Below are positions 13,349-32,903 of a stretch of 33,942 bases of DNA, piece by piece. The stretch comes from an uncultured Methylococcaceae bacterium (GTDB taxonomy: Bacteria; Pseudomonadota; Gammaproteobacteria; Methylococcales; Methylomonadaceae). Below the pieces are notes generated by a model, which made no database searches, was not told where the DNA came from, and was given only the letters and a program-made list of their open reading frames with translations. Made by a program: the position numbers and the translations under genes. Where the stretch lies: positions 1 through 33,942 of the forward strand of contig CAIMEB010000089.1 in the NCBI GenBank assembly GCA_903839855.1. Direction: 5' to 3'. How positions within the stretch are numbered: the stretch's first letter is position 1; each line of letters opens with the position of its first letter.

Positions 13349-15226
13349 CTATCGACGGTCGCCCACAGGTGCTGCAAACCCGTCTGATACCAAATCTTTA
13401 ACATTATTGCCTGTTAACGCTTTTAAAAAAGAAACCAGATCAGCCAGTTCTGATTCGGATAAATTCAATGGCTTTAATAGCGTTGAGAGGTTTTCATTGG
13501 CAATTCCACCCTGATTGTAAAAATGCACCACGGCTTCCAGAGTCGCCAGGGAACCGTTATGCATATACGGTGAGGTTAGCGCTATATTACGTAGAGAAGG
13601 CGTTTTGTAAGACCATCTGTCCTTAGGGTCTTGACTGATTTCGTAATACCCTAAATCATTGGGCTTTTCGGTATTCAAACCTGTTAAGTTTTGTTTAGGT
13701 ACCTCAACAAAGACTCCGGGTGCTACTTGTATCTTTTGCTGTTCAGGGGCTTTCTGCATAGAGGCTGCATAGCCGATACCCGTATTATGGCGCTGTTGAT
13801 CTGTGAACAGAGCTGAGGTCTTATCAATAGTATGGCAACCACTACAACCTGCTTTACCTTTAAATAAAGCCGCTCCCCGCTTAACGTCTTCATTTACACC
13901 TTGAGCTTGCTTACCGTAATACCATCTATCGAACGCTGAGTCAGCGGAATTAAGGGTGCGCTCATAACTGGCTATCGCTTGCCCTATGGTTTCCATGGTC
14001 GGATTTTTATTAAAGGCTTGCTCAAACAGGTGCTTATAATCTGTACTGTTTTTTATTTTATCCACGACATAGCCGATAGATGGATTAGCCATCTCATTAT
14101 TTGCTAGCAAAGGCCCCCAGACTTGTTGTTCTAAACTGTTTTCTCGCCCATCATGGAATAAAAGTTGTGCATAACCGACATTATAAAGACTCGGGCTATT
14201 ACGCCGCACACTCCGTCCTTCTATACCAACCGCCGTAGTCATTTCATTATTACTAAAACCCTGTTCAGGGATATGACACATTGCACAGGAAAAGGTGTTA
14301 TTTAAAGACAGGCGTCGATCGTAAAATAATTTGCGTCCCAAAGCAATCTTAAAGTTCGTCACTCGATTATCATTAGGTTGAGGTTGTTTAGGTAAACCTA
14401 ACGGCGGGTTATGGGTAAATTTAATTAGGTTAATGGGTTGACCCCGGCGCAGAGACAAGGCTATCGAACGGGTTTGATAAGCAATATCCTGATAATTTTG
14501 TTTATTGTCACCGGCCTCAAATAAACCCTTTGTTTTAGCGAGAGTCGGTAGGGTGGGCTGCTGAGCGCCCATTAACAGGGTTTTAATATCATTAATGACC
14601 GTATCAGCATGTAAAAAGTCAACACTATATATGTTGCGAATATTTTTATCGGTATCAATTAAATACACTCGCAGTAAATGTGAATAGGTACCGGTAAACC
14701 GACCTTTGTCATCAACTATTTTCTGGACATTTTGCTGATAAGCATTAAGTATGGGTTGTAAAGAGAATTCGTCACGCGTCGTTAGAAATTGCCAATCGAA
14801 ATGACCCGCTTTAAAGCTCTCGCCGTATTTACGCATTCTATCGGGCGTATCATAAGTCGGATTAAAACTTAAGGTTAACAAGCGTAATTTATCTGCCAGT
14901 TCCGGTTGTTTTTGCAATTGCTGGCTAATCTTGTGTAGCACTTGGGTTGCTAACGGGCAGCCATTAACATCATTGCAGGCTGCATAAATAAAACTCAGTA
15001 ACACGATTTTACTATCCATCAACTGATGCAGTCGTCTGGGCTGATTTTCGACGGTCAAAACCTCACCATCAGCCGCAGGATCAATGACAGGTAAGTGATA
15101 ACTACCAGGGGTTGCCGATTTAAAAGGCAGTTCGGAGTAACCCATTGCTAAGGGGTTGGATTCTTGTGATTGTGCTACCGTAGTTATCAGGATCAGTAAA
15201 AGACTGAAGCAATGAGGCGTTTTCAT
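13349..15226 (-). CDS. SCO-like domain fused to a di-haem cytochrome c peroxidase (CcpA/MauG family)
   Basis: 625 residues with a signal peptide (1-20), so periplasmic. Residues 30-220 are a SCO1/SenC thioredoxin-like domain: a Cys pair C84/C90 in CNDVNGCP and H183 in GTYSHLLRVYLID, the usual Cu-binding trio but with five rather than three residues between the cysteines. Residues 285-610 are a bacterial di-haem peroxidase with haem motifs CAMCH (314-318) and CSGCH (461-465), the ALGRKLFYDRRLS start and the C-terminal TPSLRNIALTSPYMHNGS. It should reduce peroxide using cytochrome c electrons, or modify a protein as MauG does. Fusion implies copper or thiol chemistry linked to haem maturation or redox sensing (inference). 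Convergent with the lipoprotein gene. Confidence 0.88.
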   Translation of the reverse strand: MKTPHCFSLLLILITTVAQSQESNPLAMGYSELPFKSATPGSYHLPVIDPAADGEVLTVENQPRRLHQLMDSKIVLLSFIYAACNDVNGCPLATQVLHKISQQLQKQPELADKLRLLTLSFNPTYDTPDRMRKYGESFKAGHFDWQFLTTRDEFSLQPILNAYQQNVQKIVDDKGRFTGTYSHLLRVYLIDTDKNIRNIYSVDFLHADTVINDIKTLLMGAQQPTLPTLAKTKGLFEAGDNKQNYQDIAYQTRSIALSLRRGQPINLIKFTHNPPLGLPKQPQPNDNRVTNFKIALGRKLFYDRRLSLNNTFSCAMCHIPEQGFSNNEMTTAVGIEGRSVRRNSPSLYNVGYAQLLFHDGRENSLEQQVWGPLLANNEMANPSIGYVVDKIKNSTDYKHLFEQAFNKNPTMETIGQAIASYERTLNSADSAFDRWYYGKQAQGVNEDVKRGAALFKGKAGCSGCHTIDKTSALFTDQQRHNTGIGYAASMQKAPEQQKIQVAPGVFVEVPKQNLTGLNTEKPNDLGYYEISQDPKDRWSYKTPSLRNIALTSPYMHNGSLATLEAVVHFYNQGGIANENLSTLLKPLNLSESELADLVSFLKALTGNNVKDLVSDGFAAPVGDRR

Positions 15227-23179: not shown

Positions 23180-24139
23180 TCACTTACCCAAAAACTGTCC
23201 AAACGCTCGACTACCTTGACCCGTTTTAATTGTCTCAACTACTTTAAGCACTTTGGCATCAATCACTGATACGGTATTATCAAACCAATTAGCCACATAA
23301 ACATGCCGATCATCAGGGTGAGTATTAATACCCTCAGGTTTACTACCGACTTCGATTAAAGCAATTTCTTTTAATGTTTCCGTGTCAACAACTGAAACAG
23401 AACCATCATCTTGATTCGTCACCAGTAAACGTGAATCATTAAGTGCTAAGGCGGTAGCGTAAGGCAAGGTACTGACCTTAACTGTCGCAATAGGCAATAA
23501 TCGACTAGCTTCCAAAACTGTTACATCATCACTTTTTACATTGGCAACATAAATACGCTCGCCTCTGCTATCAATCGTCAATCCAAAGGGATGAGAACCC
23601 ACGAGGGTAGTCTTAGTCACTATTAAGGTTGACAGGTCAATCTTGGAAACTGAATCACTTAGTCTATTAGCAACGTACAGCCAACGGTTATCTGGGCTAA
23701 CAATCAAGCCAGAAGGGGATTTACCGACACCAATAGTTTTAATAACCTTAAAACTATCAGCATCCACCACATCAACTTTATTGTTGTACCAATCGGCAAC
23801 ATAGATTCGCTTACCATCTGTGCCCACTGCTATGCCCAAAGCCCCTTCACTCACCGGCACTTCAGCAATAATAGTTCTTTTTTTAACGTCTAACACTGCA
23901 AAGCCTTTTGCTTCTGGAGTGCTGATATACACTTTATCGCCTGCAGGAGCGACTGCAACACCTGCAGGTTTGCCCTGCACACTGATAGTGTCAACAACTT
24001 TACCCAGCTCAGTATCAATAATAGAGACACTATTGCCCAGCTGATTACTGATATAAGCAAAAGGAGCTGCCGCTAAGGAGCCTACAAAAAAAGTTGTAGC
24101 GATCAACATCGCTACAACATGGCATTTAGGTAAAAACAC
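23180..24139 (-). CDS. Periplasmic YVTN-family beta-propeller protein (YncE-like)
   Basis: 319 residues: an N-terminal signal segment (ending about SLAAA), then about seven repeats of 40-45 residues each carrying a version of 'YVANxxxNxVSVID...VGxxPxGIAV'. Examples are YISNQLGNSVSIID, YVADWYNNKVDVVD, YVANRLSDSVSKID and YVANWFDNTVSVID. This predicts a seven-bladed propeller in the periplasm, probably a binding or scaffold protein. The start is GTG at 24137-24139 with AGGA seven bases upstream; an ATG ten codons in is possible. It begins ten bases after the MxaD-like gene, so the two form an operon. In methylotrophs such propellers occur near PQQ and methanol dehydrogenase genes (family knowledge). 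Confidence 0.88.
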   Translation of the reverse strand: MFLPKCHVVAMLIATTFFVGSLAAAPFAYISNQLGNSVSIIDTELGKVVDTISVQGKPAGVAVAPAGDKVYISTPEAKGFAVLDVKKRTIIAEVPVSEGALGIAVGTDGKRIYVADWYNNKVDVVDADSFKVIKTIGVGKSPSGLIVSPDNRWLYVANRLSDSVSKIDLSTLIVTKTTLVGSHPFGLTIDSRGERIYVANVKSDDVTVLEASRLLPIATVKVSTLPYATALALNDSRLLVTNQDDGSVSVVDTETLKEIALIEVGSKPEGINTHPDDRHVYVANWFDNTVSVIDAKVLKVVETIKTGQGSRAFGQFLGK

Positions 24140-24149
24140 CCGATCAATC

Positions 24150-24713
24150 CTACTTTTCAGCCAAAGACTTCAAGTTGAACAAACCTGTTTTAATAACGGC
24201 GCCTACCGCAGCGTTCGCAGTTTCTTCGTTCATTTCAACTGGGGGATTGTTATTGGTGTAAGCACGGTAGTAACCTGCAGTCCATGAAACCACTGAGGTA
24301 TCTCCTTTTGCTTCGACTTCTATGCTGGCTGAATAGTTATCAACTGGCAGCGCAGGCACCTTTTCTTCAACACCTGCATGTACAATAGTTTTTGCTGTAC
24401 TAATGTCAGTGATTTTATAAGCATAAGTCTTCTTAGCTTCATCATATTTTTTTAATTCTTCGGTGATAGTGCCACCGTCTTTTAAGGTCAATACACGTGT
24501 TGCACCTTTAACGTTTCCACCATTGACCGTGGTGTTAAAAATATCTGGGTGCCAAGACATATCACCAAAATTTTTAATAATGCCCCATACTTTATCAGCG
24601 GATGCATTAATAGTAATTTGTTCTTCGGTCTTTTGACGTACTGGACCGTGAGCATTGACAACCGCTGAGAACAAAAATAAAGCGATTGAGCCAACAAACA
24701 TAACTTTCTTCAT
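24150..24713 (-). CDS. MxaD-like periplasmic SRPBCC-family protein
   Basis: 187 residues from the ATG at 24711-24713, chosen because GGAG lies just upstream and a signal peptide (MKKVMFVGSIALFLFSAVVNA) follows; the longer frame has no ribosome site. The mature protein would begin HGPVRQK, then ASADKVWGIIKNFGDMSWHP, GATRVLTLKDGGTITEELKK, and YRAYTNNNPPVEMNEETA. These features match MxaD, a periplasmic START-like protein that in methylotrophs promotes interaction of methanol dehydrogenase with cytochrome cL. The symbol is withheld because no mxa cluster is nearby, so it may be a paralogue serving another PQQ dehydrogenase. The beta-propeller gene follows by ten bases. Confidence 0.8.
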   Translation of the reverse strand: MKKVMFVGSIALFLFSAVVNAHGPVRQKTEEQITINASADKVWGIIKNFGDMSWHPDIFNTTVNGGNVKGATRVLTLKDGGTITEELKKYDEAKKTYAYKITDISTAKTIVHAGVEEKVPALPVDNYSASIEVEAKGDTSVVSWTAGYYRAYTNNNPPVEMNEETANAAVGAVIKTGLFNLKSLAEK

Positions 24714-25129
24714 GATAACTCCAAATGTAAACTTAAAAACTGAGGCTGGCATTATATGATAAGTAATTGATGCAAGCATCAGTTGACGCATTTAAATTGT
24801 CATTGATGATCAAAACTCAGGTGTGCTGCCAACTACGACTAATTGCAATTGTATATTTCCGTGTCATAGTGCCAAGCTTGTGTAATTAAAATTAACCTAT
24901 AAATTACAGTCAGATACAAAAAAATAAGATGAAGATAATAGTTGTTCTGGTAAAATTCAGATCATTGCACAGTCCGGTTAATAAGTTAACAATGTTACAA
25001 TTGGATGGCATCAACTGGCAACGTGTGCCCCGCTTCAGCGGGTAGCACGGTATGGCAACACCTTTACAAATTATTGCCAGACAAACTGATGAACTGGCTA
25101 CCAAAATGTACGAATCGTGAGTTAACTTT
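24714..25129. other. Intergenic region between the MxaD-like gene and the SDR gene
   Basis: About 415 bases. A perfect minus-strand -10 TATAAT (24756-24751) lies 38 bases before the MxaD-like ATG, with no good -35. At 25025-25048 a hairpin forms (GTGC CCCGC loop GCGGG ta GCAC). On the plus strand 24993-25120 reads, through one TAG, as MLQLDGINWQRVPRFSG then MATPLQIIARQTDELATKM and a stop before the SDR; this looks like a scrap of former coding sequence but I cannot identify it. Confidence 0.45.
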
Positions 25130-27996: not shown

Positions 27997-28611
27997 ATGA
28001 ACAGAGTACAACTAATTAGAAAGAGTTTCCTAGGACTTTTAGGATTGATGTTTTCTGCATCGCTATGGGCACATGGTGGAGCGGCTGGAACGGATACAGA
28101 CCAATGTAAGTTTGAATTACAGCCAACCCATTGGATTCATTACACTGCTTATCAGCCTAGCGCATACCCAGCGGAAGAATTTTGCGGTAATTTGCCTGGC
28201 ATTAATACGCTAACACAATTAGTTTTTGACTACCAGGATATGAAATACCGAAATATGTTGGTTGAGTTTGAAGTGACTAAAGAACCAGAAGGTAAACAGG
28301 TATTTTTCTTACCCAGTGCAAAACATAAAAAAGGTTCAGTTAATCTAGAATTGCCAAATGGCGTGGCAGAAGCAGGCCAGTATTTAATTCACATTACATT
28401 AGTACCCGATCCAGCAGATACTGAGAATCGTACACAAGGTGAGCGTTTAGACGTTCACATGGGTTTTAAAGCGGGTGGCGGGCAGCCAGTCAGCAAAAAT
28501 AATTTATTACTTTACGCATTCTTTGCTTTAGCTGGTATATACGTATTGTATTTATCCAATGCAGGTTTTAAACGTAAAGTTGATGAAGTAATTATAAAAA
28601 TCAAAAGTTAA
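27997..28611 (+). CDS. Membrane-anchored periplasmic protein with predicted mature N-terminal His
   Basis: 204 residues. A clear signal peptide (1-25, ending ASLWA) would leave a mature protein starting HGGAAGTDTDQC. A soluble periplasmic domain follows (26-165) with a likely disulfide pair C37/C63 and histidines at 45, 48, 110, 132 and 154; residues 70-157 look like a beta-sandwich. A single membrane helix (about 169-187) and a short basic tail anchor it in the inner membrane. I cannot assign a family. An N-terminal histidine after signal cleavage occurs in copper proteins such as PmoB, CopC and LPMOs, and the next gene encodes a cupredoxin, so a copper role is possible (inference). ATG with GGGAAGG upstream. 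Confidence 0.82.
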   Translation: MNRVQLIRKSFLGLLGLMFSASLWAHGGAAGTDTDQCKFELQPTHWIHYTAYQPSAYPAEEFCGNLPGINTLTQLVFDYQDMKYRNMLVEFEVTKEPEGKQVFFLPSAKHKKGSVNLELPNGVAEAGQYLIHITLVPDPADTENRTQGERLDVHMGFKAGGGQPVSKNNLLLYAFFALAGIYVLYLSNAGFKRKVDEVIIKIKS

Positions 28612-28621
28612 TTAATGAGCA

Positions 28622-28688
28622 GATGTTACGCATTTATCAAGAATATCTATAAACCCGGTTTATTAAATTAAAGATATTGCGTAACATC
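28622..28688. repeat. Nested inverted repeats between the His-start protein and the cupredoxin gene
   Basis: Outer arms GATGTTACGCA (28622-28632) and TGCGTAACATC (28678-28688) are perfect complements. Inside them ATATCT (28643-28648) pairs with AGATAT (28672-28677), and ATAAACC-C-GGTTTAT (28649-28663) forms a tight central hairpin. No T-run follows. It may be an mRNA processing structure or a small mobile repeat. Confidence 0.65.
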
Positions 28689-28803
28689 AATCTGATTCGA
28701 TATAAGAATCTGTTTAGTTTAATTATTTGAGCTTTTAGCGCACTAACTGGTAATTGAGCTAAAATTGCTTTAATTTATGTCAAGCACAAAGAGGAAGTAA
28801 ATA

Positions 28804-29715
28804 ATGGTGAAGTTTTTATCAGTTGGAGTACTGATTGCTTTGTTTTCAGTGCCCGTTATGGCGGTGGACTATGAAGAGCATGATGGTATGCTGATGGATC
28901 ACGGAGATGGCCACTTGATGGACATGGCCGGTGGTATGGTGATGGGACAAAATACCAGTACGTTACCGGGTGGTTGTGAGCGTATTTCTGAAACCAAAGA
29001 AATTACGGTTCATGCGGGGCATAAATATGCTGAAAAATTTCCAGGTAGAATGTTTGCCTTTGATACGCAAGAATTTAATTTTAAACCGTGTACCAAGTTG
29101 ACAGTTCATTTTGTCAACGAAGACAATATTCGACATCAATGGATGATGCATGGCTTGCCAAAATATTTATACCCTAAAGGGATGTTTCATATAGAGGCTT
29201 CAGGCCCATCTAAAATTTCAGGGACTTTGATCTTACCGCCGGGGGATAAAACCTATTTAGTCCATTGCGATATTGCACAGCACATGGAAAAAGGCATGAA
29301 AGCCCAGCTAAAAGTAGGCAAGGGTGATGGTGATTTACCAAGTATTCCAGGCGTGACTGCCTTTGTAGTTGCTGACGATTATAAGGTTACTTTGCCAGAT
29401 CTGGAAGCTAAGGCCGAAAAAGCCGAAGCAGCGGCTTTAATTGCCCCTCCTGTTATCGTAGCACCGATTGTTAAGGCGTCTGTTCAACCACCTCAAGATG
29501 ATTCTCTTCTTTCGGGTGTCACCGTCATTGGTTTAGCGCTGGGTTTACTGGTTGCACCTTTCTTAGCACGTAAATTTAAAGGCATGAGTCCATCGGAAGT
29601 GGTTGCTTATGTCTTTGATGCAATACGAACCCTGCTTGACTGGCTGGTAAAACAAGTGTCTCGTTTAGTCAAACTGACTGGATCAAATAAAGACAAGGTA
29701 TTGCCAGAAAAATAA
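28804..29715 (+). CDS. Membrane-anchored Met/His-rich cupredoxin
   Basis: 303 residues. Signal peptide 1-20 (ending PVMA); a Met/His-rich segment at 26-47 (HDGMLMDHGDGHLMDMAGG) suited to Cu(I)/Cu(II) capture; a cupredoxin domain at about 60-172; an Ala/Pro-rich linker (200-232); a membrane helix (about 235-255) and an amphipathic, basic tail. The type 1 copper ligands are visible as H111 in IRHQWMMHG and C155, H160, M165 in HCDIAQHMEKGM, the C-x4-H-x4-M spacing of plastocyanin/nitrite-reductase-like sites. It should transfer electrons or copper at the periplasmic face. AGAGGAAG lies six bases before the ATG. The YqaA-like gene starts at the base after its stop. Confidence 0.88.
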   Translation: MVKFLSVGVLIALFSVPVMAVDYEEHDGMLMDHGDGHLMDMAGGMVMGQNTSTLPGGCERISETKEITVHAGHKYAEKFPGRMFAFDTQEFNFKPCTKLTVHFVNEDNIRHQWMMHGLPKYLYPKGMFHIEASGPSKISGTLILPPGDKTYLVHCDIAQHMEKGMKAQLKVGKGDGDLPSIPGVTAFVVADDYKVTLPDLEAKAEKAEAAALIAPPVIVAPIVKASVQPPQDDSLLSGVTVIGLALGLLVAPFLARKFKGMSPSEVVAYVFDAIRTLLDWLVKQVSRLVKLTGSNKDKVLPEK

Positions 29716-30141
29716 ATGCAAGAGATATTCAGTGCAATTTGGGGGCTTTTTTTAAGCGCTTTTATTTCCTCAACCATAGCACCGGGTGGCTCTGAAGCTG
29801 TTTTAGCTTACATGGTATCTCAAGGTCATTATGATGTTGGTTATTTAGTTACCGTAGCGTCAATCGGCAACACCTTAGGTGCAATGACTACATGGGCTTT
29901 AGGTTTACTGGCAGCAAAAAAATTTCCGGTGGCAAGCCTTTTACCAGAAAACAAGCAAAAAGCGCTTAATGTCATAGAAAAAAGAGGTATCTGGGTATTA
30001 TTTTTTTCATGGTTACCCATTATAGGTGATGCTTTTTGTTTTGCAGGAGGTTGGTTAAAATTACCACTGTTGCCTGCTTGCTTAATTATCTGGGTAGGAA
30101 AACTCAGTCGTTATGCAATAATAGCCTGGTTGTTTGTATGA
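29716..30141 (+). CDS. YqaA/DedA-type small inner-membrane protein
   Basis: 141 residues with about four hydrophobic segments. Features of the YqaA branch of the SNARE-associated/DedA group are FISSTIAPGGSEAVLAYMVS near the start, SIGNTLGAMTTWALG in the middle and FFSWLPIIGDAFCFAGGW later. The family is implicated in lipid or proton-linked membrane homeostasis, but the biochemical activity of YqaA is unknown. It starts directly after the cupredoxin stop codon, so the two are translated from one message. The pairing suggests a role in export, folding or metal delivery for the cupredoxin (inference). Confidence 0.82.
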   Translation: MQEIFSAIWGLFLSAFISSTIAPGGSEAVLAYMVSQGHYDVGYLVTVASIGNTLGAMTTWALGLLAAKKFPVASLLPENKQKALNVIEKRGIWVLFFSWLPIIGDAFCFAGGWLKLPLLPACLIIWVGKLSRYAIIAWLFV

Positions 30142-30218
30142 AAGAGATGATTTTCTTAACAACTTGTTTCATGTTTATGTTGTTTTTTAGCGGATAATAG
30201 AATTCTAAAGAGGTCATT

Positions 30219-30971
30219 GTGCTACGCCATTTCCCACGCCCTAATACTGTCTACACCCATCGAAAACGGGATTATTTTATTGCAGTGTTTACTTTTGTAT
30301 GTGTGGCCGTTTGTTTAATATCTGATGCAAATGCTTCTATAGAAAAACAAAACGCATTGGGCGTAAGTGGTTGGGTATTCTTGATTGGTCTTTTGTTGGG
30401 TGAAAATAGAGAGGTTAGAGTACAGGTAGTAATTGCCGTAATATTTGCAACTGTTGGTGAACATTTTGCTTCACCTTTTATGGGCGGTTATACCTATCGA
30501 TTTGGTAATGTACCGGCTTATGTGCCTCCAGGTCATGGTATGGTGTATTTAACCGCCGTTGCTTTATCACGATCGGGTTTATTTTTGACTTATGCGAAAG
30601 AAATTACCGCATTGGTTATCGTGGTCTGTGGATTATGGTCTTTATGGGGAATTAGTGGTATTCCTGATCAAGGCGATTACGTAGGCGCTTTATTATTTTG
30701 CGTATTTTTGATTTATTTATTTAAAGGCCGCTCTCCCATGGTTTATTTAGCGGCTTTTTTTATTACCACTTGGCTAGAATTGATTGGTACAGCAGTGGGT
30801 ACCTGGAAATGGGCGGCTATTGATCCCGTATTGCACTTGCCACAGGGTAATCCTCCGAGTGGTGTAGCGGCTTGGTATTGTTTGGTTGATGCTGTTGCAA
30901 TTGGAGGTGCGCCTTTAGTGTTGCAGGGATTTACAAAGCTTCTAACTATGCAAAAAATAAAAGAAATCTAA
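30219..30971 (+). CDS. Multi-pass membrane protein of unknown function
   Basis: 250 residues with about seven hydrophobic segments, start GTG at 30219 with AGG six bases before. Recognisable pieces are FATVGEHFASPFMGGYTYRF, VPAYVPPGHGMVYLTAVALS and TAVGTWKWAAIDPVLHLPQG; the last resembles segments in carotenoid-synthesis-like or related integral membrane proteins, but I do not recognise the family with confidence. It follows the YqaA-like gene by 77 bases and may belong to the same cluster. Confidence 0.75.
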   Translation: MLRHFPRPNTVYTHRKRDYFIAVFTFVCVAVCLISDANASIEKQNALGVSGWVFLIGLLLGENREVRVQVVIAVIFATVGEHFASPFMGGYTYRFGNVPAYVPPGHGMVYLTAVALSRSGLFLTYAKEITALVIVVCGLWSLWGISGIPDQGDYVGALLFCVFLIYLFKGRSPMVYLAAFFITTWLELIGTAVGTWKWAAIDPVLHLPQGNPPSGVAAWYCLVDAVAIGGAPLVLQGFTKLLTMQKIKEI

Positions 30972-30989: not shown

Positions 30990-32903
30990 ATGAAAGCTAA
31001 AAAGATAGTCAGCTTCTTATTTGTCATAGTTGTTCTTTGTGCTACCGTGATAGCATACATAAATCCCACACCTACTTTAACTATTACAGCAACCCCTACA
31101 ACCATTATGTATGGTTTAACAGGAACGATTAACTGGTCTTCCGAAAATACCCTTAAATGTGATGCATCAGAAGGGTGGACTGGAGCAGAGGCATTATCAG
31201 GCACTTTTACCACTCCGGCGTTGACCCGTTCGACTGCTTATACACTTACATGCACTGGCTTGCTCGGAATCGTCACCCAAACAACTAACATAACTGTAAC
31301 ACCTCCCGTTGGTAAGGCGGGTTCTAAGATGGGTATCAATATAGGTTATGTCAATGATTGGGGTGATAGACAGCACACGTTTATTGATGTAATGAAGCAG
31401 GCACGTGGTTTTGCTTCTTTAAAATGTCCATGGGATCCTGTTAATTGTCCAGTGCCTTTGGATACCAACGGTTGGCCAACAACGGATTTTGGGGTATATT
31501 TTATTACCAATGCTGCAGATCCGCTAAAGCGCCCGCTAAACACTACGTACCCCAGCATGTTTGGTACTTATAAACTGAGCTTTACGGGTCAGGCAAATGT
31601 AAGAGGATACAACTTCGGCTTAGTCCAAAATATGGTCTATAATCCTTCAACCAATACGACGACGGCTGAGGTGCTTGTACAACCTACTGATCAACAAATT
31701 GCGCTTGTATTCACAAACACTACAAATGGCGTACAGAATTTGCAATTATTACGTCCTGGTTACGAGCTAGGCACCAAGCAGGTATTTAGTTCAGAGTTTT
31801 TAAACGCACTCGCTCCTTTTAGTACCATCCGCGCAATGGAGACACTGGGAACAAACTCTAATCCGGCAACGAGTTGGGCGACTCGAAAGTCGGTCACCGA
31901 TCCGTCGCAACAAGGTGCAATGGGTATTGCTTGGGAATACATTATCCAGCTTGCCAATGCCACCGGTAAAGACATCTGGATTAATATCCCTGATCAAGTG
32001 GATTTAAATGATCCAACCGCTAATAATTATGTGATTCAGTTAGCCACCTTAATTAAGAACACACTCAATCCCGGCATCCATGTTTATGTGGAGTACAGCA
32101 ATGAGTTATGGAACGGAATATTTACTCAGGCACATACTCTTACTTCAGCAGCAGTAGCGGATGTCAATTCAGGCGCAGATTCAACCTTAAATTACGATAA
32201 AATAAATAACCAGTGGTATTGGGGATACCGAAGAGCCGCTCATCAAACCTTGAAAATAAGTCAATTATTTGCAGGGGTTTTTGGTCCATCAGCGATCAAT
32301 GACACGATTAGACCTGTTTATATGTCTCAATATGTACAGCCCTATTTGACTGAGGATTCGCTCAGGTATCTAAGTGCGAATTTTGGCCCCCCTAGTCAAT
32401 ATCTCTATGGTATCGGTGGAGCGCCCTATTTTTCACCACAAACCCCTTATTCTGATATGGATGGTTTATTTGCTGCGCTACAAACCGGTTTAAACCTTAT
32501 ACTACCAGGTTTTTCTGGACTCCCTGCGTACAATGGTGGAGTCGTCTATAGTGGAGTGCAATTCAAGAACATGGCTAATTATTACGGACTCAAAACATTA
32601 ATGTATGAGGGAGGGCCTGATTTAACAGTTAATAAAGCTAATCCGGCTCTCGTCCAGTCGTCTGTAAGCGATATTCGAATAAACCAGATGGTTCAAGCAG
32701 AGTTAGCAGACTTTTTAGGCTGTGGTAATGATCTGTTTGTCTATTATAAATTGGCGGCTCCTACTAGCGATCCTTTTGGTGCCTACGAAGACTTAACGTT
32801 ACCCACACCCAAAAGCATAGCGCTCAACACGGTGGCAGAAACTCCATTATCAAATTATACCGTTTGTACACCAACCATGACAGATCAGTTATCTATTCAA
32901 TAA
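30990..32903 (+). CDS. Anchored Ig-like / glycosidase-like surface protein
   Basis: 637 residues, ATG with AGGGG seven bases upstream. Residues 5-25 form an uncleaved or cleaved membrane segment. Residues 28-105 are an Ig-like domain of the 'WSSENTLKCDASEGW ... ALTRSTAYTLTCTG' type, with C57 and C88 able to form a disulfide. Residues 115-630 resemble a (beta/alpha)8 glycoside hydrolase: VYVEYSNELWNG with E372 as candidate acid/base and LKTLMYEGGPDL with E540 as candidate nucleophile. Similar proteins are annotated as cellulose-binding or GH-A-like; the substrate is unknown. It follows the multi-pass gene by 18 bases. No T-run terminator follows; an inverted repeat lies 50 bases downstream. 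Confidence 0.72.
   Translation: MKAKKIVSFLFVIVVLCATVIAYINPTPTLTITATPTTIMYGLTGTINWSSENTLKCDASEGWTGAEALSGTFTTPALTRSTAYTLTCTGLLGIVTQTTNITVTPPVGKAGSKMGINIGYVNDWGDRQHTFIDVMKQARGFASLKCPWDPVNCPVPLDTNGWPTTDFGVYFITNAADPLKRPLNTTYPSMFGTYKLSFTGQANVRGYNFGLVQNMVYNPSTNTTTAEVLVQPTDQQIALVFTNTTNGVQNLQLLRPGYELGTKQVFSSEFLNALAPFSTIRAMETLGTNSNPATSWATRKSVTDPSQQGAMGIAWEYIIQLANATGKDIWINIPDQVDLNDPTANNYVIQLATLIKNTLNPGIHVYVEYSNELWNGIFTQAHTLTSAAVADVNSGADSTLNYDKINNQWYWGYRRAAHQTLKISQLFAGVFGPSAINDTIRPVYMSQYVQPYLTEDSLRYLSANFGPPSQYLYGIGGAPYFSPQTPYSDMDGLFAALQTGLNLILPGFSGLPAYNGGVVYSGVQFKNMANYYGLKTLMYEGGPDLTVNKANPALVQSSVSDIRINQMVQAELADFLGCGNDLFVYYKLAAPTSDPFGAYEDLTLPTPKSIALNTVAETPLSNYTVCTPTMTDQLSIQ

Follow-up and report, generated by a model that had tools for sequence, protein, structure and literature searches.

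A putative copper-redox gene cluster with a PmoD-family protein and its linkage to pmo genes in methanotrophs

A four-gene cluster on a contig of an uncultured Methylococcaceae bacterium encodes a PmoD-family protein, a predicted type-1 cupredoxin, and two membrane proteins. We propose that it is an accessory copper-redox operon of particulate methane monooxygenase (pMMO), split off from the pmo genes, a reading to which we give a probability slightly above one half (roughly 0.55). The window, by which we mean the whole stretch analyzed, is the 33,942-nucleotide contig CAIMEB010000089.1 (C89 of the source genome, here called G000). The host is a methanotroph, since G000 has pmoA, located on contig C3. 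An earlier sequence-only reading had described a candidate copper-handling cluster at this locus, with a leader ending in LWA ahead of a mature protein that starts HGG (H26), and the four genes and this junction are present in the sequence where it placed them. That reading missed the PmoD homology of the first protein, here called HGG, and the position of the set beside pmo genes in related families.

Family identity, gene order, and linkage to pmo genes

HGG (204 residues; 27997..28611, on the forward strand like the other three genes) is assigned to the PmoD/AmoD family because the PmoD structure 6cpd is its best match both by sequence and by fold. In a phmmer search of the PDB, 6cpd was the top match at an E value of 0.001, and the HGG orthologue in locus L039 matched it at 5.1e-12. 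An AlphaFold2 model of mature HGG, built on a 79-row alignment (predicted local distance difference test, pLDDT, 79; predicted template modeling score, pTM, 0.62), also had 6cpd as its top Foldseek match (E 2.3e-7; template modeling score 0.71 by target length and 0.52 by query length). Like the characterized family (6cpd; Fisher et al. 2018, PMC6189053), HGG has a leader, a cupredoxin-like periplasmic domain, two invariant Cys, and a C-terminal transmembrane helix; C-terminal helices are present in the model, and C37 and C63 occur in 106/106 cluster-linked homologues. The family is found in organisms with copper membrane monooxygenases (CuMMOs), as here: G000 has pmoA, and genome G053, without pmoA, has neither PmoD nor the cupredoxin described below. 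A PmoD profile search of 16 genomes returned one copy in G000 (HGG itself), one in G115, none in G053, four in G364, and 10 in G449; published copy numbers range from one per genome (e.g., Methylovulum) up to 11 (PMC6189053). HGG is the sole PmoD of G000 at that search sensitivity. It matched no Pfam, NCBIfam, or PHROGs family, and identification as CopC, a lytic polysaccharide monooxygenase (LPMO), or PCuAC was rejected, as neither Pfam (E up to 1) nor NCBIfam gave a match.

The second gene encodes CUP (303 residues; 28804..29715), a predicted type-1 copper protein with a C-terminal hydrophobic membrane anchor. The sequence-only reading had singled out H111, C155, H160, and M165 and a Met/His-rich head, and comparison bears this out. 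By sequence, the His, Cys, His, Met set of a type-1 (blue) cupredoxin is complete, and it is near-invariant in 122 distinct homologues, with C155 and H160 in all 122 and H111 and M165 in 121 each (one gap and one Leu, respectively). Within the head (residues 26-47), Met is kept at positions 39, 45, and 47 in 120, 119, and 122 homologues; the CUPs of ammonia oxidizers carry long His-rich heads. CUP matches Pfam Cu-oxidase_2 at 5.3e-5 and no PHROGs family. In a midpoint-rooted tree of 50 rows, ammonia-oxidizer CUPs (100/100) cluster with family f2 (98/94), inside the CUPs of the methanotroph order, a grouping that suggests CUP has passed by transfer.

The named collection yielded 492 relatives of CUP, and the best 80 of their loci were retained; these belong to Methylobacter, Methylovulum, Crenothrix, and uncultured bins labeled Methylococcaceae, Methylococcales, or proteobacterium. 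Among these best 80 of 492, an HGG homologue is found in 79, the exception (L078) beginning inside CUP. Across the genus, the order HGG-CUP-VTT is kept where short loci allowed. A stricter positional script, confined to loci with room, placed PmoD upstream in 76/78, VTT downstream in 68/77, MP4 in 65/70, and a multicopper oxidase (MCO) in 0/78. The four genes thus co-occur, as the earlier reading had supposed, more often than chance would give.

The methanotroph order was compared through 25 loci from eight families (f1-f8), with flanks of 1.8 to 11 kb per side, and pmo genes appear in seven of them. In f7 (2/3 loci) and f8 (2/2), the order is pmoC-pmoA-pmoB-pmoD-MCO-CUP-VTT on one strand. In f2 (1/2), MCO-CUP-VTT-MP4 is followed 1.3 kb on by pmoC-pmoA-pmoB on the same strand (L229, also of f2, stops 2.1 kb past CUP), and in f3 (1/1), PmoD-MCO-CUP-VTT-MP4 is followed 1.2 kb on by pmoC-pmoA, again on the same strand and running to the contig end. 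In one of seven f1 loci, pmoB lies on the opposite strand, 5.1 kb away from CUP; no pmo genes were seen in the loci of f4 (0/6), f5 (0/1), or f6 (0/3). Four loci, L227-L230, were fetched after L205 had been seen, and without them the pmo-bearing loci number 4/21; in L205, PmoC, PmoA, and PmoB are confirmed by Pfam (E 7e-94 to 5e-146). Families f7 and f8 share an arrangement, as do f2 and f3, and each pair may represent one event. Because pmo genes are a tiny fraction of a 2-5 Mb genome, we judge the linkage to be far above chance, by judgment rather than by a formal statistic.

PmoD and CUP are separated by the MCO in 16/16 loci of f3-f8 and in 2/7 of f1. The window locus has none, the MCO of G000 being on contig C178, where it overlaps a second, shorter CUP. 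The cluster-associated MCO has as its best PDB sequence matches the two-domain multicopper oxidases 3g5w and 2zwn, with which it shares copper ligands that include Cys in the first cupredoxin domain and, in the last, HDH where other oxidases have HCH; unlike them, it has an additional N-terminal region and a C-terminal hydrophobic anchor. Four His-x-His pairs and the Cys-containing domain are kept in 8/8 aligned sequences.

For the phylogenetic profile, PmoA/AMO (AMO, ammonia monooxygenase) was scored by PF02461 on the same draw of 251 genomes of the methanotroph order as CUP, and CUP is present in 242 and PmoA/AMO in 207. When the two tables were matched by hand, 207 genomes had both, 35 CUP only, none PmoA only, and nine neither. 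Restricting the count to the 54 genomes of 10 contigs or fewer leaves 53 with both CUP and PmoA and G053 with neither. Genus g9 (18 genomes) has 12 with both, one with CUP only (G097, 78% complete), and five with neither; g9 presumably resembles Cycloclasticus, and g17 Methylomonas. In a draw of 349 genomes from the phylum, including G000, AMO was above the cutoff in G000, G364, and G449 and below it in G582, and full-length CUP was found only in G000 and the AMO-bearing G364, with a weak partial match (5.8e-5) in G563. Within the family of G364, CUP occurs in 33/81 genomes, all of genus g70 (33/41 by hand count), and AMO in 53/81. In these samples, every CUP from beyond the order came from a genus that bears AMO. 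Genera g70 and g234 presumably resemble Nitrosomonas and Nitrosospira.

Copper ligands and the N-terminal histidine of HGG

The sequence-only reading had proposed that HGG exposes an N-terminal His of the kind that forms a histidine brace. The predicted signal peptide comprises residues 1-25 (27997..28071), as indicated by conservation of A25-H26-G27-G28 and by the -3/-1 residues, and with the leader ending SLWA before HGG, H26 (28072) is the predicted first mature residue. We infer cleavage directly before H26: among 118 PmoDs with [ASG][HD]GG, the -1 position is A in 114, and the -3 position is one of L, V, I, and A in 114, most often L (63). An alignment of 146 distinct PmoD open reading frames (ORFs), 106 of them with CUP within 3.5 kb (cluster-linked) and 40 others, shows that H26 is well conserved, as the earlier reading would have it, and its partner histidines are also kept. 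The N-terminal column holds His in 102/106 cluster-linked PmoDs and Asp in four, all from f6; in the 40 others it holds His in 26, gaps in eight, and other residues in six. In f6 (L048, L053, L054), PmoD paralogues with an N-terminal Asp and Met replacing H48 stand beside MCO-CUP.

A D-x-H motif (D152-x-H154) is present in 110 of the 146 ORFs, every one of which has the N-terminal His, and the full motif never occurs in the 10 PmoDs with a non-His N terminus. Eighteen PmoDs have the N-terminal His without the full D-x-H, which counts against strict coupling. The pairing fits a histidine brace but is confounded by ancestry, because most alignment rows come from one family. Like the histidine-brace proteins (CopC, PmoB, methanotroph PCuAC, and LPMOs), HGG is predicted to begin with His once its leader is removed, and the D-x-H that is conserved in its last strand is, we presume, shared with CopC. 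Unlike them, it has a conserved Cys pair and matches neither CopC nor any other Pfam family. The candidate ligands within 27997..28611 are H26, C37, H45, H48, C63, H132, D152, and H154, and of these the invariant C37 and C63, with H45 and H48, in the copper-site region of PmoD, compete with the brace. Model residues 1-8 fall below pLDDT 50, so a brace in HGG is a candidate feature only. In the form first put forward, it found no support, given the lack of a CopC or other Pfam domain, the low-confidence N terminus of the model, and the rival Cys and His ligands.

The characterized PmoD has a CuA site with the ligand motif Cx7MxHxnC (PMC6189053). HGG does not have this motif because it has no Met in the region (C37, H45, W46, H48, and C63), and instead carries D-x-H together with the N-terminal His; at that N-terminal position, the 6cpd-like gene of G449 (L181) encodes Glu. 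Fisher et al. recognize a second class, Cx9HxnC, whose members bind copper without making a CuA site (PMC6189053). Its C-x9-H spacing also occurs in most cluster-linked PmoDs outside f1, f6, and f7, and the HGG family differs from it by one additional residue (C-x10-H). That class is often near copC (PMC6189053), whereas the neighbors here are MCO, a type-1 cupredoxin, VTT, and MP4. The PmoD constructs of the published work had N termini extended by two vector residues, so the native N terminus was untried there (PMC6189053).

Membrane genes and surroundings in the window

VTT (29716..30141), a YqaA-like small membrane protein of 141 residues, is named from a Pfam score below the cutoff and from its position in relatives: it scores 27.3 bits, short of the curated cutoff of 33.9 for the VTT domain, and an f8 relative scores 30.7. 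Its first base directly follows the CUP stop codon, a zero spacing that had been reported from the sequence and is indeed there; the same zero gap occurs in the near-identical locus L005, and the remaining relatives of the genus have about 30 to 280 bp. The multi-pass gene that was said to follow does so after 77 bp, and HGG and CUP are 192 bp apart. In that gap, 3' of HGG, we noticed by eye an imperfect inverted repeat with 10-base arms at 28622-28690 (ATGTTACGCA / TGCGTAACAT); HGG and CUP may have separate transcripts. Deriving the operon structure from promoters and terminators was rejected: 10.2 promoter-like sites were expected and 10 were found, five terminator-like sites compare with 3.1 expected (standard deviation 1.6), and no terminator-like site falls in the gaps between cluster genes.

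MP4 (30219..30971), the multi-pass membrane protein of 250 residues, matched no Pfam, NCBIfam, or PHROGs family, and its model, at a low-confidence pLDDT of 62, had no PDB fold match at E up to 0.001. Assigning a function by fold or by phylum relatives was rejected, as the model was poor and the relatives gave no clear function. Relatives occur in 20/398 phylum genomes: G000, G364, G506, and 17 weaker ones, all 17 from one family. In the ammonia oxidizer G364 (L222, 5175-10476), MP4 lies 275 bp beyond a row of haoA-like, haoB, cycA, and cycB-like genes, assigned as Multi-haem_cyto (Pfam), haoB TIGR04392 (E 9e-111), cytochrome c554 NF043010, and a NapC/NirT cytochrome; the multiheme cytochrome gene is read as haoA. 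From this context MP4 may be linked to a quinone/hydroxylamine electron relay. MP4 also looks internally duplicated by eye, GEHFAS..GGYTYR..VPPGHG resembling LELIGT..GTWKW..PQGNPPSG.

Directly after MP4, 30990-32903 encodes an apparently secreted protein of 637 residues with no Pfam or NCBIfam match. Elsewhere in the window, by eye, are an apparent SCO1-type domain fused to a di-heme cytochrome c peroxidase (13349-15226), possibly a copper/redox protein; an MxaD-like SRPBCC protein adjoining a YVTN-repeat protein (23180-24791), plausible methanol-oxidation accessories; and fragments resembling a broken transposase close to the contig end (33041-33386).

Proposed role, rival explanations, and significance

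The cluster probably helps supply pMMO with copper or electrons, because of its copper-binding patterns, the togetherness of its genes, and its adjacency to pmo. What is directly established is family identity, ligand conservation, gene order, pmo linkage, and the phylogenetic profile. On the reading as an accessory copper-redox operon, HGG would be tethered at the periplasmic face of the inner membrane and CUP would be a tethered type-1 copper protein whose Met/His head catches copper, with a tethered MCO between them in most other families. Together they would form a periplasmic copper relay in which copper is captured, its redox state is set, and it is delivered to pMMO; HGG would act as the carrier facing pMMO and CUP, joined by MCO where that occurs, as the redox element, whereas VTT and MP4 would be membrane parts of the relay with no job assigned. 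Copper binding by the cluster proteins and the direction of copper flow belong to this conditional picture, and contact with pMMO would be guilt by association. The copper-loading or electron-transfer role suggested by the sequence-only reading survives insofar as a periplasmic copper-ligand set is linked to a copper membrane enzyme, and its histidine brace is unproven. Deletion of an in-operon pmoD in Methylosinus trichosporium gave a growth defect only with copper, and Fisher et al. left it open whether PmoD supplies reductant, loads copper, or lends structural support (PMC6189053).

Several observations weigh against the accessory-operon reading. In 18/25 methanotroph-order loci no pmo gene is seen (flanks are unequal, and misses do not amount to absence), pmoCAB of G000 itself lies on a different contig from the four-gene cluster, and six ammonia-oxidizer loci have MCO-CUP without PmoD alongside. 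CUP is present where PmoA was not found in 35/251 genomes of the order, through either fragmented assembly or true absence. CUP is also missing from G449, the single alphaproteobacterium-like CuMMO genome of the phylum draw (presumably an alphaproteobacterial methanotroph, as its PmoD matching 6cpd suggests), from the ammonia oxidizers of g234 (CUP 0/23, AMO 16/23 by hand count), and from seven AMO-positive g70 genomes, including the single-contig G682. Because of the AMO-positive g234 and g70 genomes without CUP, we reject the idea of a cluster indispensable to any CuMMO; not all CuMMO organisms need CUP.

The rival that fares best, though we think it unlikely, is electron supply: CUP, with PmoD and MCO, would pass respiratory-chain electrons to pMMO, or to O2 for redox balance, and would transport no copper. 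The complete, near-invariant type-1 set is typical of electron carriers, the cluster adjoins pmo genes, and reductant supply is among the PmoD roles listed by Fisher et al. (PMC6189053). The Met/His head suggests metal capture instead, and CUP is not an obligatory electron donor, because it is missing in many CuMMO-bearing genomes, among them many ammonia oxidizers and G449. MP4 beside the hao/cyc row of G364 would suit a hydroxylamine electron relay, but this linkage is seen in one genome only.

Copper detoxification is a more doubtful account still, in which MCO and CUP oxidize periplasmic Cu(I) in the manner of CueO/CopA, PmoD buffers copper, and the pMMO link reflects high copper demand. 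The His-x-His pairs and Cys-containing domain of the MCO and the His- and Met-rich heads suit it, as do efflux-type genes (membrane fusion protein and resistance-nodulation-division subunits, by eye) adjoining MCO-CUP in L140, L201, and L210. But the cluster comes directly after pmoCAB in f7 and f8, the window locus lacks an MCO, and beyond G000 full-length CUP in the 349-genome draw is confined to the AMO-bearing G364; general copper-resistance genes are not known to be distributed in this way.

Least probable by far is nitrogen-oxide handling, in which MCO-CUP would work with nitric-oxide or heme-copper oxidases and the methanotroph clusters would be an adaptation of this: three of six ammonia-oxidizer loci have NorC/NorB-like genes (L140; L201, at 5 kb) or COX2-COX1-SCO genes (L204) nearby, but NorB and NorC queries matched 0/25 methanotroph-order loci, and the nor context looks derived because ammonia-oxidizer CUPs nest with f2 inside those of the methanotroph order. 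In L204 (5820-10084), MCO-CUP is followed by COX2-like, COX1-like, and SCO1 genes, a neighborhood that we take to resemble the sNOR set.

A further reading, speculative and rather improbable in our view, is that pMMO has as its dedicated partner a complex of PmoD (with N-terminal His and D-x-H), CUP, and MCO, that this complex is the long-sought physiological partner for electrons or copper, lost when the enzyme is purified, and that a brace-type site replaces CuA in this PmoD subfamily.

The PmoD family is known, and the proximity of some PmoDs to multicopper oxidases has already been noted (PMC6189053). What appears new, as far as the literature searched extends, is the set of type-1 cupredoxin, VTT, and MP4, its adjacency to pmoCAB, and the pairing of N-terminal His with D-x-H, of which we found no account there; nor did that literature, supplements excluded, yield a description of the order pmoCAB-D-MCO-cupredoxin-VTT. 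In the main text of a signal-strapping paper on N-terminal-His proteins (PMC12537917), none of the terms HGG, Methylo, and Nitroso occurs.

Isolated pMMO is less active than pMMO in whole cells (PMC6189053), and where it obtains its electrons and copper is an open question. The gene set is compact, keeps together across the order, and adjoins pmo genes in several families, and three of its products (PmoD, CUP, and MCO) have copper-ligand patterns; this, with the single PmoD copy in G000, makes gene-deletion and reconstitution tests simple. Methylomonas DH-1 has been described with a pmo operon without pmoD (PMC8764830); our analysis suggests that methanotrophs such as this one may carry PmoD elsewhere in the genome.

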